From contig NZ_CP114901.1 of the NCBI RefSeq assembly GCF_027497175.1, positions 2,852,001 through 2,916,000 of the forward strand: a DNA stretch of 64,000 nucleotides, read 5' to 3'. Source of the DNA: Verrucosispora sp. WMMD573. GTDB lineage: Bacteria; Actinomycetota; Actinomycetes; Mycobacteriales; Micromonosporaceae. The number at the start of each line of letters is the position of its first letter. Position 1 is the first letter of the stretch. The notes beneath the pieces are model-generated. The model ran no database searches. It was given only the letters and a program-made list of their open reading frames with translations, and was not told the DNA's origin. Positions 44,680-50,773 of this stretch are shown here, piece after piece. Made by a program: the position numbers and the translations under genes.

Positions 44680-44940
44680 GCCAGTCGGCGGAGAGAACAA
44701 CGCCAGAGCAGGTCGGGTGTCCCGTCGATGTCGATGTCGATGATTGACGACATCGCGGCGCGCCCAGGCGTCGTGGTTCATCAGGGTCGCCTCCGCAAAG
44801 GCGGCCCCGGTGTACCGGACAGCACCCAGAACTCCGCGCCGGAGCGTAGCGCCAGGTCGGGCCGTTTGTCGCCGGTGATGTCGCCGACCGCCTTGATCTG
44901 GGTCCAGGTCGACGGGTTCGGCGCGTTGGCCGGGAGCGGA
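44680..44940 (-). pseudogene. FG-GAP/VCBS repeat protein fragment, frameshifted
   Basis: On the minus strand the translation reads TWTQIKAVGDITGDKRPD and ALRSGAEFWVLSG in one frame, then YTGAAFAEATLMNHDAWARR in a second, then IIDIDIDGTPDLLWR in a third. This is the C-terminal part of an FG-GAP (integrin-like propeller) protein with two frameshifts and no start. It abuts plus-strand RHS remnants head to head. Confidence 0.75.
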
Positions 44941-44944
44941 CGGC

Positions 44945-45292
44945 TGGGACTACGCGGCCGGCGCGATCACCCGCACCTACGACCTACGTCAACTGTCGGC
45001 AGGGCTCCAAGAAGCCCGGCTCGAACAACAGCGAGCACCGGACCGCGGACCTCTGCTGGGGGTCGAAGAACGCCACTCTCTCCCTCGGCGGGATGACCAC
45101 CGAGCTGGTCCGGGACGACACCACCGGGACCTGGACCACCGCCAACGGTGACGGGTCCACGGTGCAGATGCTCAAGGACACCAGCCTGGACAACGCTTCT
45201 ACAACTCGGCCGGCGAGGTCTGGTAGACCAACAACGTCTACTTCGCCGAAGGCTCGCCGATCGGCCGGCTGTTCACCCCCGAGTCGGACACG
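44945..45292 (+). pseudogene. Degenerate N-terminal remnants of the RHS gene
   Basis: Three pieces of RHS-like coding sequence follow each other in different frames: WDYAAGAITRTYD (frame of 44945), YVNCRQGSKKPGSNN to DGSTVQMLKDTSLDN (frame of 44985, to 45194), and FYNSAGEVW-stop-TNNVYFAEGSP (frame of 45197). The last is in frame with the large RHS ORF but interrupted by TAG at 45224, where TGG TAG replaces an expected Trp-Trp. Internal deletions and a nonsense mutation thus removed the N-terminus. Confidence 0.8.
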
Positions 45293-48200
45293 GTGGTGCC
45301 CAACGCCACCCGCTACACCTACGACGGCCTCGGTCGGGTGGTCGAGGAACTGCCACTGCTCAACGGCACGGAGTACCCGAGCCGCGCCACCAAGTACAGC
45401 TACGGGCTCGACCACTCCACAGTCATCAACCCGGCGGGCGCGGCCTCGTACCGCCTCTACACCGACGGCCTGGGCCGCACCACGCGGGTCGATACCTTCC
45501 GCGACGCCGCCCGCACCGACTTCACCTCCATGCGCTACGAGTACGACACGCGCGGGCAACTCGCCGAGGCCACCCACTCGGCCAACCCGGTCCCGTGGAC
45601 CTGGACGTACGACCAGCGCGGCCGGCTGACCCGGACCACCGACCCGGACACCGGTGCCACCACCATGACGTACGACCACCGGGACCGGCCGCTGACCAGC
45701 ACCAACGCCCGTGGCATCACGGTCTGGAACGGGTACGACGAGCTGTCCCGCCCCACCCAGCAGCGGCTCGGTGGCAGCGGCGGTGAACTGCTGGCCGAGT
45801 ACACCTACGACACGGTGGCCGGCGGTAAGGGCCTGCCGGCGACGTCGACCCGGTACACCGACGGCCTGCCGTACACCCAGTCGGTCGGCGGCTACACCGA
45901 GGACTACCAGCCGACCTCGACCACGTTGACGCTGCCGGAGTCGATCGCCACCACCTGGGGTCTGAACCGGGACTACCGCTACGACCACACGTACACCGAC
46001 ACCGGACTGACCGAGTCGGCGACGCTGCCGGCGGTCGGCTCGCTGCCCAGCGAGAAGCTGCTGGTCCGGTACACCAGGGACGGCCTGCCGCTGTCGGTGT
46101 CCGGCAAGGACTGGTACGGCTCCGAGACGGTCTACTCGCCGTACGGGCAGGTGTTGCGCTCGACGCTGGGCGCGCACCCGTACCGGGTGTGGACCATGGC
46201 CTCGTACGACGACGCCAGCGGCGCCCTCACCCGGCAGCAGGTGTTCCGCGAGATCGAGGGCAACCACCTGGTCTCGAACCGTGGTTACTGGTACGACGCC
46301 GCCGGCAACGTGACCGCGATCCGTGAGTATGCGGCCGGAATCGCCGAGCGGCAGTGCTTCACCTACGACCCGCTCGGCCAGCTCCGCAACGCCTGGACCT
46401 CCCAGGACCAGGCGTCGTGCAGCGCCGGTCCGGGCACCGCGACGGCACCGAACGCGGCGGCGGGCGTCGACGGCACCGGCTACTGGCAGGAGTACGAGTA
46501 CGACCTGCTCGGCAACCGGACCAAGCTGGTCGAGCGGGACCTGACCGGCCGCACCTCCACCGGCCCGATCGAGACCACCTACGGGTACGGCTACGGCACC
46601 GAGGAGGGCGACCAGCCGCGCACCCTCGACGCCGTCACCAAGACCTACACCACGCCGCAGGGCGCGGCCATCGTCTCCGAGGCGAAGCGGCTGTACGAGC
46701 TGACCGGCGAGACGAAGTCGGTCACCTCCACCCGCAACGGGGACCAGCAGGAGTTGTCCTGGACGTACGACGGCCAGGTCGAGCGGATCACCGGCTCCGG
46801 CACCAAGGGCCGCACCGCGTACCTGGGTCTGGCGAGCAAGTGCATAGACCTGAGTTCCAGCCTGGCCGAGCCGAATCGACCCATCCAGCTGTACACGTGC
46901 AACGCGACAATCGCGCAGAAGTGGGCCTTCGTCCCGGCACCGGAGCAGACCAACGCGAACCTGGGCACCCTGTCGATATTCGACTCCTGGTGCGCCCAGC
47001 CGGCCGGCACCACCGCCGGGTCGGCGCTGCGCCTGCAACGGTGTGACGGCACGGCGGCGCAGCAGCTGGAGCGGCTGTCGACGGGGCAGTTGAAGCATCC
47101 CACCTCCGGCCTGTGCCTGGCGGTGCAGGACGCAGCCATCGCCGACTCCACGCCGATCGTGCTCGCGGCCTGCGCCGGTGGTGCTCCCGAGCAGCTGTGG
47201 GAGGCGCAGGACGAGACGCGGCACATCTACGGGCCGGGCGGCACCCGCCTGCTGAAGATCCAGGGTCAGCAGGCCACCCTCGACCTCGGCGAGGCCCAGG
47301 TTTCCGTGCAGAGCGGCGGGATGCTGCTCAACACCCAGCGCAGCTACGCCACGCCGGGCGGGATGGTGACGCGGTACGCCTACGGCACCAGCACCGGATC
47401 CAACCTGGTGGCCGTCGCCAGCGACCACCAGGGCAGCCCGTCCGCCGAGGTGGCCCTCGCCAACGGGATGCAGATCCGGATCCGTAAGCAGGATCCGTTC
47501 GGCAACCAGCGGATCGCCGACACACCGGCCAATCTCCAGACCAACCGGGGCTTCCTCGGCGCGGTCCGCGACGACACGTCGGGCTTCGTACCGTTGGGTG
47601 CCCGGCTGTACGACCCGGAGGTGGGTCGGTTCCTCTCCGCGGACCCGGTGCTGGACCTGACCGACCCGGTGCAGAACAACGGCTTCACGTACGCCCACAA
47701 CAACCCGGTCACCCACTCCGACCCGTCGGGCCTGTCGGTGGCGTTGACCGCGTCGGAGACGGCGGCGGCGCTGGCTGGTGCAGGCTTGTCGTCGGCGATG
47801 ATCGCTCAGGCGCAGGCCAACATGGGCCGCTCGCTGATCTCGGTCATCCTGGATTCGGCGTGGTACATCCTCAAGGAGTTCATCGGCATCAACGACGCCC
47901 TGAACTGCTTCGGCGGTGACATGTGGGCGTGCGGCAGCCTCATCCTCAACGCCATCCCCTGGACAAAGGTCGCCAAGATTCCGGCGGTGATCCGGGCGGT
48001 CAACCGTACGATCAACGCGATCCAGGCATGGCAGGCGGCGAAACGGGCCGCCGAGGCGGTGCTGGCGGCGGCACGAGCTGCCGAGGCCGCCGCGTTGCAG
48101 GCCAAGAAGCTCGCCATCGAACGGGCCAAGAAGGCTGCCCAGGCGGCGAAGAAGAAGGCCGCCGACAAGGTCAACTCGACAAGCAACAAGGCGACCCAGT

Positions 48201-49210
48201 CGGCGAAGAAGACGGGTAACGGCCCGCAGAAGGAAGCCCAGGCCAAGTCCAACCCGAAGGGCTCGTCGGCGGCGTCCGGCGGCGCCGGCGGCAAGGGCGG
48301 CGGCGGTAGCGGTGGCGGTGGCAAGGGCGACTCAAAGCCGGGCGGTTCCTCCGGTGCCTCCAACCGCAGTAACGGCGGCTCCAGCGGCAACAATGGCGGT
48401 TCGTCGGGTGGTGGATCCTGTGAGCGCCCCGGCAACAGCTTCGTGCCGGGCACCAGGGTGCTCATGGCCGACGGCTCAACCAAGGCGATCGAGGACGTCG
48501 AGCCCGGCGACAAGGTGGTGGTCACCGATCCGGAGACCGGCCGTACCGAGGTGGACACGGTTACCGCCACGATCACCGGCGACGGCGTCAAGGACCTGGT
48601 GAAGGTCGTCATCGACACCGACGGCGATCACGGCAGCGAGACCGCCGAGGTCACCGCCACCGACGGTCACCCGTTCTGGGTACCCGAACTGGGCGAGTGG
48701 ATCGACGCCACCGACCTCCAGCCCGGCCAGTGGCTTCGAACCAGCGCCGGCACCTACGTCCAGATCACCGCGATCGACCGCTGGAGCGTCCCCCGCGCCA
48801 CCGTCCACAACCTAACCGTCGCCAACACCCACACGTACCATGTGGTAGCGGACAGAACTTCGATCCTCGTCCATAACTGTGGGGGTTCGCTTGCGGGGCA
48901 TTCTGACGATTGCCAGTGCGACAAAGCCCCTCGCTTTGAGGTGGATGGGGACGGGGTCACGGTTGATCGGCAGAAGACCGACTACGACGAGCCCAACCAA
49001 CGTCGGCGCGATGGTGTCGAAAAGAAGGTCGACAGCATTCAGGAAGGTGCCGAGTTCTTTGCGCAAGTATATGAGAACACCGGAGCTCCGCCAGTGGCCG
49101 ATGTGGCCGTCGGGGACGCTGTCGGAAATATCGGTATCGTATTGTACGCAATTGGTTTGGGGGTAAAGCGCATCCTTCAGGGTGGCTACAAGGGAAAGCA
49201 TCGAAGATGA
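45293..49210 (+). CDS. RHS/YD-repeat polymorphic toxin with ricin-type lectin and Hint domains (5' truncated gene)
   Basis: An open frame of 1305 residues. Order: YD repeats (about 1-505, e.g. RYTYDGLGRVVEE, MRYEYDTRGQL); an inserted ricin-B-type lectin with CIDLSSS and CLAVQDAA (about 508-640); the RHS core end GARLYDPEVGRFLSADPV ... NPVTHSDPSG (about 770-815); Ala/Lys helices and a Gly/Ser linker; a Hint self-cleavage domain from Cys1043 (CERPGNSFVPGTRVLM) to VHN1195; and a 110-residue tip from Cys1196. The signal peptide and N-terminal shell are missing (see 44945-45292), so export and expression are doubtful although the rest is intact. The first possible start is GTG 45293. Confidence 0.85.
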   Translation: MVPNATRYTYDGLGRVVEELPLLNGTEYPSRATKYSYGLDHSTVINPAGAASYRLYTDGLGRTTRVDTFRDAARTDFTSMRYEYDTRGQLAEATHSANPVPWTWTYDQRGRLTRTTDPDTGATTMTYDHRDRPLTSTNARGITVWNGYDELSRPTQQRLGGSGGELLAEYTYDTVAGGKGLPATSTRYTDGLPYTQSVGGYTEDYQPTSTTLTLPESIATTWGLNRDYRYDHTYTDTGLTESATLPAVGSLPSEKLLVRYTRDGLPLSVSGKDWYGSETVYSPYGQVLRSTLGAHPYRVWTMASYDDASGALTRQQVFREIEGNHLVSNRGYWYDAAGNVTAIREYAAGIAERQCFTYDPLGQLRNAWTSQDQASCSAGPGTATAPNAAAGVDGTGYWQEYEYDLLGNRTKLVERDLTGRTSTGPIETTYGYGYGTEEGDQPRTLDAVTKTYTTPQGAAIVSEAKRLYELTGETKSVTSTRNGDQQELSWTYDGQVERITGSGTKGRTAYLGLASKCIDLSSSLAEPNRPIQLYTCNATIAQKWAFVPAPEQTNANLGTLSIFDSWCAQPAGTTAGSALRLQRCDGTAAQQLERLSTGQLKHPTSGLCLAVQDAAIADSTPIVLAACAGGAPEQLWEAQDETRHIYGPGGTRLLKIQGQQATLDLGEAQVSVQSGGMLLNTQRSYATPGGMVTRYAYGTSTGSNLVAVASDHQGSPSAEVALANGMQIRIRKQDPFGNQRIADTPANLQTNRGFLGAVRDDTSGFVPLGARLYDPEVGRFLSADPVLDLTDPVQNNGFTYAHNNPVTHSDPSGLSVALTASETAAALAGAGLSSAMIAQAQANMGRSLISVILDSAWYILKEFIGINDALNCFGGDMWACGSLILNAIPWTKVAKIPAVIRAVNRTINAIQAWQAAKRAAEAVLAAARAAEAAALQAKKLAIERAKKAAQAAKKKAADKVNSTSNKATQSAKKTGNGPQKEAQAKSNPKGSSAASGGAGGKGGGGSGGGGKGDSKPGGSSGASNRSNGGSSGNNGGSSGGGSCERPGNSFVPGTRVLMADGSTKAIEDVEPGDKVVVTDPETGRTEVDTVTATITGDGVKDLVKVVIDTDGDHGSETAEVTATDGHPFWVPELGEWIDATDLQPGQWLRTSAGTYVQITAIDRWSVPRATVHNLTVANTHTYHVVADRTSILVHNCGGSLAGHSDDCQCDKAPRFEVDGDGVTVDRQKTDYDEPNQRRRDGVEKKVDSIQEGAEFFAQVYENTGAPPVADVAVGDAVGNIGIVLYAIGLGVKRILQGGYKGKHRR

Positions 49211-49686
49211 GTGACGTTTTTGGTCCCAGGTCGCTGATGGCGCAATTTATGATGGCCACGATCCTTCGTGACAATGAGTCCCGGGATAGGGTCAAAGCGA
49301 AGTTGGTATCGACGGGCTGGCGGGACGCGGATGGCTTGGTTGACGGCGCGCTGGCTGTGGCGCTAGCTGGGCATTTCGCGACTCCCCCGAAGTTGTCTGA
49401 CGTTAAGAAGCTGTCCCGAAAAATTGTCAAAAAGTTCCCGGATCCTCGAATGAAAGAAGGGGAGGTGGAGCTAGTCGTTCGTTCCGCGCTGGGGGAAAGC
49501 GCAGACTTGTCCGCCATTCCAAGTGGAAGGGTGGAAGGACTTAAGATGCTTATTTTTGCCGGAATGGCAAGCGTGAGAGGTCTTTCGAAAGTTGAGGTAA
49601 GCCAGCTCCTAATCGAGGCTGAACGATGGGCCTCGGAGCGTGGATACCGGCCGACGCTGATGACGGAGTCGCAGACGGACAGGTAA
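49207..49686 (+). CDS. Candidate immunity protein to the RHS tip
   Basis: A 159-residue cytoplasmic protein without signal or membrane segment, Lys/Glu-rich and helical (VKKLSRKIVKKF, EVSQLLIEAERWASERG). The ATG lies within the RHS stop (ATGA), so it is translated with the toxin tip. Its base composition is visibly less GC-rich than flanking genes, as is the tip coding region from about 48890. Position and coupling are those of polymorphic-toxin immunity genes; no family was recognised. Confidence 0.65.
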   Translation: MSDVFGPRSLMAQFMMATILRDNESRDRVKAKLVSTGWRDADGLVDGALAVALAGHFATPPKLSDVKKLSRKIVKKFPDPRMKEGEVELVVRSALGESADLSAIPSGRVEGLKMLIFAGMASVRGLSKVEVSQLLIEAERWASERGYRPTLMTESQTDR

Positions 49687-49732
49687 TCCTGATGGCCGCC
49701 CGGTGCGGGTGCCTGCTCCTAATTGTGAAGGA

Positions 49733-49790
49733 CGGATTGGCTGACACGCCGGCCAATCTCCAGACCAACAGGGCTCCTCGGAGTGGTCCG
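49733..49790 (+). repeat. Duplicated scrap of RHS core
   Basis: This ~58-bp stretch matches the RHS core at about 47509-47568 (shared 21-base run CCGGCCAATCTCCAGACCAA plus C), with scattered differences and one deletion. It encodes ADTPANLQTNR as in the intact gene. It lies just downstream of the immunity gene. Confidence 0.85.
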
Positions 49791-50102
49791 GTGCTCGTCG
49801 CCAACGCCACGGAGCCGTTGCCGGCCCTGACCGGCCGGATCTGCGTTGCGGGCATCCTCGCTGGGGCGATGGTGCCACTGCCGTTGCTGCTGCGTTTGCT
49901 GACCGGTTGGCCTCCGCAACGTGTAGCGGTAATCGTTGTGCCGATCGTCGCGGTGGTCGTGATGTTTGGCGGCATCCCGTGGGCCATCCGCTACGCCGTA
50001 CGCCGGGTGCCGAGGCGAGGCTCCTCATCGGCAGGCACACCGCCGTGGACACCACCCGACCCACCGTGGCCGCAAACCAATGACGAGCCACGCACCGCCT
50101 GA
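49791..50102 (+). CDS. Small membrane protein (hypothetical)
   Basis: About 103 residues from GTG 49791, which has GGAG at good spacing inside the duplicated RHS scrap. Two hydrophobic segments (ICVAGILAGAMVPLPLLL and VAVIVVPIVAVVVMFGGIPWAI) are followed by a basic then Pro/Trp-rich tail. The frame opens earlier (ATG 49626 or 49692) through RHS-derived sequence, so the true start is uncertain. No family recognised. Confidence 0.45.
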   Translation: MLVANATEPLPALTGRICVAGILAGAMVPLPLLLRLLTGWPPQRVAVIVVPIVAVVVMFGGIPWAIRYAVRRVPRRGSSSAGTPPWTPPDPPWPQTNDEPRTA

Positions 50103-50200: not shown

Positions 50201-50210
50201 CGTCGGAATG

Positions 50211-50234
50211 GTACCGCGTGGTACGGTGCGGTAC
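50211..50234 (+). promoter_or_regulatory. Phased GTAC repeats: putative toxin-antitoxin operator
   Basis: GTAC occurs at 50211, 50221 and 50231, exactly 10 bp apart, ending at the antitoxin ATG. GTACC/GGTAC (50211-50215 / 50220-50224) also forms an inverted repeat. One-helical-turn spacing suggests cooperative binding of the antitoxin on one DNA face. Confidence 0.55.
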
Positions 50235-50534
50235 ATGGCGAAGATTACGCTGCGGGAGTTTCGCGATGGCGTGGGTCGGGTGCTGGAGGGGATCGAGCGC
50301 ACCGGTGATCCGGTGATCATCACCAAGTACGAGCGACCCGTGGCTGTCCTGATCGGCATCGACGAGTGGGAGGAGATCGAGGCGTTCCGGGACCGCCGGG
50401 ATTCGGCGGTGATCGCTCGTTCCCGTGCCGAGGGTCAGTTCGTGCCGCTGTCGGCGGCTCTGGAGTCGCTAGGGGTCGATCCTCGCGAGGTGGAGGCGCT
50501 GCTGGCTGACCGGCCCGGCGGTGCGGCGGCGTGA
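50235..50534 (+). CDS. Type II antitoxin, Phd/YefM family
   Basis: A 99-residue protein with the Phd/YefM N-terminal DNA-binding/dimerisation fold (MAKITLREFRDGVGRVLEG, DPVIITKYERPVAVLIGIDEW) and a C-terminal segment that should wrap the toxin. No Shine-Dalgarno precedes ATG 50235 and the operator repeats abut it, so a leaderless transcript is possible. The stop overlaps the toxin start (GTGA). Confidence 0.85.
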   Translation: MAKITLREFRDGVGRVLEGIERTGDPVIITKYERPVAVLIGIDEWEEIEAFRDRRDSAVIARSRAEGQFVPLSAALESLGVDPREVEALLADRPGGAAA

Positions 50535-50773
50535 AGGTTCAGATCGACCGGAACGTGCTGGTCTGGCTGCACAAGCAACCTCGCCACGTTTTTCTGACCG
50601 TCCTGAGTGCGATCCTCGGCTTGGTCGCCGATCCTTCGCCGCAGAACTCAACCGAGATGCGCGATGGATCTGGGCGTCGTCTGCGCGTCGGCGACTACCG
50701 GGTCCTCTACCGGCTCGACGACGACGAACTCACCATCCACGATGTCGGGCATCGCAAGGACGTTTACTCGTAG
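50531..50773 (+). CDS. Type II toxin, RelE/ParE family
   Basis: An 80-residue protein ending with the family pattern RVGDYRVLYRLDDDELTIHDVGHRKDVY, in which basic residues and the terminal Tyr resemble RelE mRNA-interferase positions. Co-translated with the Phd-type antitoxin by a GTGA overlap. It converges with and overlaps the cassette gene on the minus strand by 10 bp. Confidence 0.85.
   Translation: MKVQIDRNVLVWLHKQPRHVFLTVLSAILGLVADPSPQNSTEMRDGSGRRLRVGDYRVLYRLDDDELTIHDVGHRKDVYS

Follow-up and report, generated by a model that had tools for sequence, protein, structure and literature searches.

Positions 48878-49686 of the DNA examined here, a window of 64,000 nucleotides from Verrucosispora sp. 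WMMD573, have been exchanged as one block in a slot that is used elsewhere by a recognised toxin/immunity pair. This stretch probably represents an undescribed type of exchangeable RHS toxin/immunity module, in which a putative membrane-acting tip would have its helix masked by a soluble immunity protein. Both the tip and the superfamily of the candidate immunity protein are undescribed, and the exchangeable-module architecture of RHS-Hint proteins is already known. A preliminary description of the same letters had reported a Hint domain terminating at VHN/C, a tip of 110 residues and a stop codon overlapping the ATG of a gene for a 159-residue protein, and all of its coordinates proved to be exact (Table 1).

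Table 1. Features of the rhs locus and its surroundings, in window positions
Feature	Position	Strand	Basis or remark
Remnant left of the RHS open frame	44701-44937	+	Collinear in genome G093 with an FG-GAP-repeat ORF next to rhs (blastn; FG-GAP match)
Remnant of the RHS N-terminal region	44939-45195	+	blastn to G093 locus L166
RHS shell remnant	45293-48877	+	Open frame from GTG 45293; YD repeats, ricin-B lectin insert, RHS core, PT-HINT (Pfam, NCBIfam)
RHS core in shell (residues 734-814)		+	Pfam/NCBIfam matches
PT-HINT, PF07591 (residues 1057-1195)	48461-48877	+	E 2.3e-17
RHS tip, predicted toxin, 110 aa (residues 1196-1305)	48878-49210	+	Begins at Cys after VHN; AAC/TGT (VHN/C) at 48875-48880
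Predicted first (charged) helix of the tip	48989-49081	+	AF2 residues 40-70 of a 112-aa query, low confidence
Predicted C-terminal hydrophobic helix running into basic tail	49109-49186	+	AF2 residues 80-105, best 10-residue block pLDDT 78
Candidate immunity gene, 159 aa, predicted all-alpha	49207-49686	+	Superfamily membership by profile search; AF2
Exchanged block relative to G093 (tip, immunity gene, RHS-core fragment)	48883-49790	.	Nucleotide homology limits
RHS-core fragment, 51 nt	49740-49790	+	Matches the rhs core of G093 at 85% identity (53 columns)
C-terminal gene fragment	49791-50102	+	Full gene is a 645-codon stop-to-stop frame in G093, 587 codons in G073

The tip closes an open frame (45293-49210) in which RHS repeats (PF05593, E 1.1e-9) and an RHS core (TIGR03696, E 1.2e-16) were found, and the PT-HINT domain reaches residue 1195, immediately N-terminal to the variable tip. 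No LXG domain was matched at the N-terminus in Pfam or NCBIfam, the carrier being an RHS protein. A ricin-B-type lectin domain (PF00652, E 8.4e-24) also lies within the shell (residues 514-636, window 46832-47200). The tip stop, TGA 49208-49210, overlaps the ATG at 49207. As had been noticed at the outset, tip and downstream gene are less GC-rich than their carrier, with GC and third-position GC values of 0.571/0.604 and 0.558/0.625, respectively, against 0.691/0.921 in the shell, the GC of the whole window being 0.708.

The evidence for exchange came from G093, a close relative in the same genus. Much of the window has a collinear counterpart there, 93-97% identical in nucleotides, and the G093 rhs shell aligns with window 45251-48882. 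Of the 15 steps of 200 nt up to 48250, 14 show a shell identity of 96.5-99% and one of 87%; in the three steps covering 48251-48850 it falls to 83-90.5%. Homology stops five bases inside the tip, at 48882, and restarts at 49791. Within these limits the G093 slot (L165 9591-10378, minus strand) holds a PF14427 Pput_2613-like deaminase tip (E 2.8e-22) and Imm10 (PF15588, E 2.6e-11). Since the shell is the same, the homology is broken at 48882 and 49791, and a deaminase with Imm10 fills the slot, tip and gene have been exchanged as one block, which bears out the horizontally exchanged module proposed in the preliminary description. Shell, slot and order are common to the two alleles, whereas tip and immunity gene are unrelated; the window genome (G000) and G093 therefore form a clean natural tip swap, useful for specificity. 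In genome G073 the flanking genes are present with no rhs between them.

Between the immunity gene and the point at which homology resumes lies the RHS-core fragment, the first 34 nt of which are 91% identical to window 47516-47549. By its sequence, it is a recombination scar, of the type expected after recombination with another rhs cassette. Such a scar, together with the RHS repeats, the PT-HINT domain, the swap of the tip at the Hint boundary and the gene in the immunity position, is shared with the RHS-PT-HINT polymorphic toxins, as presented in the available parts of their descriptions (PMC2935791, PMC3482391). The window differs from these in that neither its tip nor its immunity protein has a match among described families and in that the N-terminal part of its rhs copy is deleted.

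Indeed, the window lacks the rhs start and most of the N-terminal region, and the frame is broken. When a full-length RHS protein (L034) was aligned by tblastn, only its residues 333-349, 366-409, 1195-1645 and 1738-1854 found a counterpart, in changing frames, and stops occur in all three frames across the 5' remnants. For comparison, the stop-to-stop frame of the G093 rhs is open and continuous for about 2,629 codons, and the G093 sequence absent from the window amounts to about 4.2 kb at the junction near 44938 and about 2.4 kb near 45194, with a further ~0.27 kb missing at 44701 (blastn). Because the 5' end is deleted, this strain has probably lost export of the tip, even though both reading frames of the module are open, and what may still matter is the immunity function alone. 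To the right of the module, the truncated gene appears, by eye, to encode a membrane protein. Further on, window 50208-50773 holds a small two-gene pair resembling, also by eye, a toxin-antitoxin system of the Phd/YefM-RelE type.

The tip itself matched nothing in Pfam, NCBIfam or PADLOC and gave no convincing match to PDB profiles (best E 0.039). Among 5.8 billion proteins, none of 141 candidates was a homologue of the tip, the window's own protein being likewise absent from the matches. For the 159-residue protein, Pfam, NCBIfam and PADLOC yielded nothing but two matches at E 0.14-0.17, far below curated cut-offs. As neither protein matches these collections beyond such weak hits, the initial judgement that both folds are unrecognised still stands. 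The AF2 model of the tip, built from 6 sequences and of low confidence (pLDDT 52), consists of a disordered start and two helices, with about 57 residues structured. The second helix contains a stretch with a 19-residue Kyte-Doolittle mean of 1.76 (the usual cut-off for this span being 1.6), which is followed by GVKRILQGGYKGKHRR. A layout of this kind, as modelled, with a disordered start, a charged helix and then a hydrophobic helix with a basic tail, would be unlike that of an enzyme. Layout and genomic context (see below) together lend weight to the earlier suggestion that this may be a membrane-acting toxin.

In an alternative and rather unlikely reading, the tip would be a small enzymatic toxin, either a nuclease or a modifier, whose helix aids membrane crossing or docking, and its neighbour an immunity protein that blocks the active site. 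Most known RHS tips are enzymes, the sister allele in G093 is a deaminase paired with Imm10, and solubility of the immunity protein would fit a target in the cytosol; the tip, however, has neither a family match nor a convincing PDB profile, its poor model structures two helices only, and a hydrophobic tail with a basic end recurs in otherwise different proteins encoded upstream of related genes. The putative membrane-acting tip is also distinct from the Tox-WTIP pore formers, a candidate that was rejected: these are defined, in the available part of PMC3482391, by a Wx[ST]IP motif and two membrane helices, and the 110-residue tip contains no Trp.

The downstream protein was modelled by AF2 as seven helices with no sheet (pLDDT 93.1, pTM 0.87). 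Its search among the 5.8 billion proteins returned two matches in 185 candidates, namely the gene's own product and a single relative with 69% identity, and a profile of eleven relatives gave, in the same search, 16 matches among 5022, the named ones all being annotated as 'hypothetical protein' of Micromonospora. In contrast to what would follow from a housekeeping role, considered in the preliminary description, no housekeeping family was matched by this gene in Pfam or NCBIfam, where superfamily members were also checked. A profile search of the family's genomes detected the superfamily in 135 of 354 (about 38%) and in 20 of 44 genera. Two sets of members, one linked to RHS and another, gene C, from an operon described below, align in hhalign at 99.4% / 5e-21. 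None of 63 superfamily members matches the curated Pfam and NCBIfam immunity families at E 0.01, and five unrelated families each match a single one of the 63 weakly. In a tree of these 63 domains, the details of which are unsure owing to long branches, the RHS-linked members are not clustered (9 changes against a shuffled mean of 9.5) and the gene-B-linked ones are (6 against 19.3). Two superfamily domains occur, adjacent or fused, in 16 of the 56 gene clusters sampled for context. The superfamily appears to be large, unnamed and undescribed, and it is predicted to be all-alpha; among the top-ranked open-licence literature on RHS proteins in Micromonospora or actinobacteria, membrane-toxin immunity and orphan Rhs, no description of it was found in titles and the starts of abstracts.

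What precedes these genes was examined in 56 gene clusters from 53 loci (13 + 40), a sample picked by the authors that includes G106. Superfamily genes are enriched immediately downstream of proteins whose C-terminus is a hydrophobic segment with a basic tail: an ORF with these features lies directly upstream in 31 of the 56 clusters and, by the same rule, at 13 of 199 control gene starts (29 and 11, respectively, once a coding filter is applied). Three of the 31 look doubtful (L037, L040, L090), and the tail proteins are not independent, because many are related to each other. The hydrophobicity of these tails is moderate, the 19-residue Kyte-Doolittle mean being at least 1.6 in 20 of the 26 measured and lower in six. 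The reverse link is looser: in 25 clusters no tail ORF precedes the superfamily genes, among them a tandem in G039 that has no rhs before it and the five loci L084-L088 described below; this is the pattern that would be expected of orphan immunity genes.

Two kinds of carrier were recognised among the upstream proteins. The first comprises RHS proteins in G102 (2109 aa) and G584, with a remnant in G033 (the last two called RHS by eye), and RHS-Hint proteins in G061 and G099 (G099 being RHS by eye), with open frames of 2382 and 2394 codons and tips that start, like that of the window, with CGG....H...C.C. The second, gene B, encodes an unnamed helical protein of about 205-236 aa (five examples) with a hydrophobic C-terminus. 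In the loci inspected, a small gene A stands before it. Among 160 genomes of this genus, 36 contain gene B (51 matches listed), with two matches in the window's own genome. A superfamily gene follows gene B directly in all 30 loci read, one per genome from 30 genomes, of the 51 matches listed. Gene A (86 aa in the two measured), gene B and the superfamily gene, gene C, make up an unnamed operon at L036, L041, L114 and L129-L158. Comparison of the tip with gene-B C-termini gave no supported homology (hhalign probability 42% over 15 columns), only layout and neighbour being common to both.

Within the genus, the association of tip and gene could be followed directly. A search of the 160 genomes with the tip found only the window and G106, where the tip follows a Hint end and lies in pieces in two different frames, at 43% and 52% identity. 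Directly after this broken tip, in an identical overlap, comes an intact gene for a protein of 160 aa, 48% identical to that of the window; a tip homologue lacking its neighbour, a case raised in the preliminary description, was therefore not encountered, the sole homologue having the gene. The G106 locus (L003 1498-3025, minus strand) is a stack of cassette remnants, in the order Hint-like end, 186-aa ORF with no Pfam match, second Hint-like fragment, broken tip and intact immunity gene. The G099-type tip, for its part, is present in two of the 160 genomes (G099 and G061), with a superfamily gene behind both. The module can be considered more than a chance arrangement, because tip pieces and an intact gene persist together in G106 and because another pair replaces the block in the collinear G093.

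It might still be argued that the downstream protein serves the C-terminal helix as a dedicated chaperone or targeting factor, the helix then being an anchor or export signal instead of a toxin. The tight coupling to gene B, the paired or fused copies and the fit of a soluble helical protein beside a hydrophobic helix with a holdase would all agree with this; nevertheless, in the window the gene takes the place of a toxin/immunity pair position for position, and it persists beside the broken tip of G106 and at loci where no tail ORF was found (such as L032, L038 and L039), which would be unexpected for a private chaperone, so that this explanation is considered improbable, slightly more so than an enzymatic tip. 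Finally, that the locus is a functionless relic, a decaying rhs fragment with a hitch-hiking tip and gene, is very improbable: the 5' deletions, frame breaks, RHS-core scar and truncated gene on the right would suit it, as would the broken tip of G106, but tip and gene are fully open with their overlap kept, the state of the shell is irrelevant to what the module encodes, and related modules are found on the long RHS and RHS-Hint frames of G102, G061 and G099.

For the toxin/immunity module, we infer from the arrangement described above that the tip is toxic, acts on membranes and binds its partner. The Hint domain would release the tip, which would insert its C-terminal helix into the cytoplasmic membrane of the target and disturb it; in the cytoplasm of the producer and its kin, the soluble helical protein would bind this helix and so spare them. 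The closest published mechanism found appears to be that of EsxX and ExiAB in the Staphylococcus T7SS. According to the available excerpts of PMC12744356, which place TelE and EsxX among the glycine-zipper LXG toxins, EsxX depolarises membranes, and its glycine-zipper helix is masked in the cytoplasm of the producer by ExiAB, a soluble heterodimer. The masking logic proposed here would be functionally alike, with a different fold. The two systems resemble each other in having a C-terminal hydrophobic helix beside one or more soluble partners, ExiAB being made of two paralogues, comparable to the paired domains seen here. They differ in that the platform is RHS or helical and not LXG, and in that the helix of the window tip has no strict glycine zipper ((G/A/S)xxxGxxxG or GxxxGxxx(G/S/T)), containing only GDAVG. 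An ExiAB-type fold was rejected for the 159-residue protein, the same excerpts describing an alpha/beta DUF5085 fold with two four-stranded sheets. Tse5, a T6SS RHS pore-former paired with Tsi5 (PMC10684867, PMC9637101, each in the part available), is likewise an RHS carrier with a membrane-acting C-terminus, as proposed here; Tsi5, however, is membrane-bound in the excerpts of PMC12744356, whereas the candidate immunity protein of the window is soluble.

A broader and more tentative proposal, given somewhat less than an even chance, is that single-helix membrane toxins form a large undescribed class in Micromonospora and its family, where two or more platforms (RHS or RHS-Hint, and the short helical A-B operon) would bear them as exchangeable C-termini. 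A single new all-alpha superfamily of antitoxins, commonly present as paired paralogues, would hold all of them in check by sequestering the toxin helix, as an independent counterpart of EsxX/ExiAB. If this were true, a toxin/immunity class missed by Pfam and NCBIfam would be added, with its immunity side in 135 of the 354 genomes searched, as would a second, structurally unrelated example of a soluble protein disarming a membrane-helix toxin.

Two further observations concern superfamily genes in multiple copies. Fused two-domain frames were found at L075, L077, L079, L083 and L095, and in four of the five (not clearly in L095) the two halves fall into two well-supported separate clades, as in a fused heterodimer. 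At five similar loci, L084-L088, tandem superfamily genes stand behind an unrelated frame of 318-331 codons with no hydrophobic tail.
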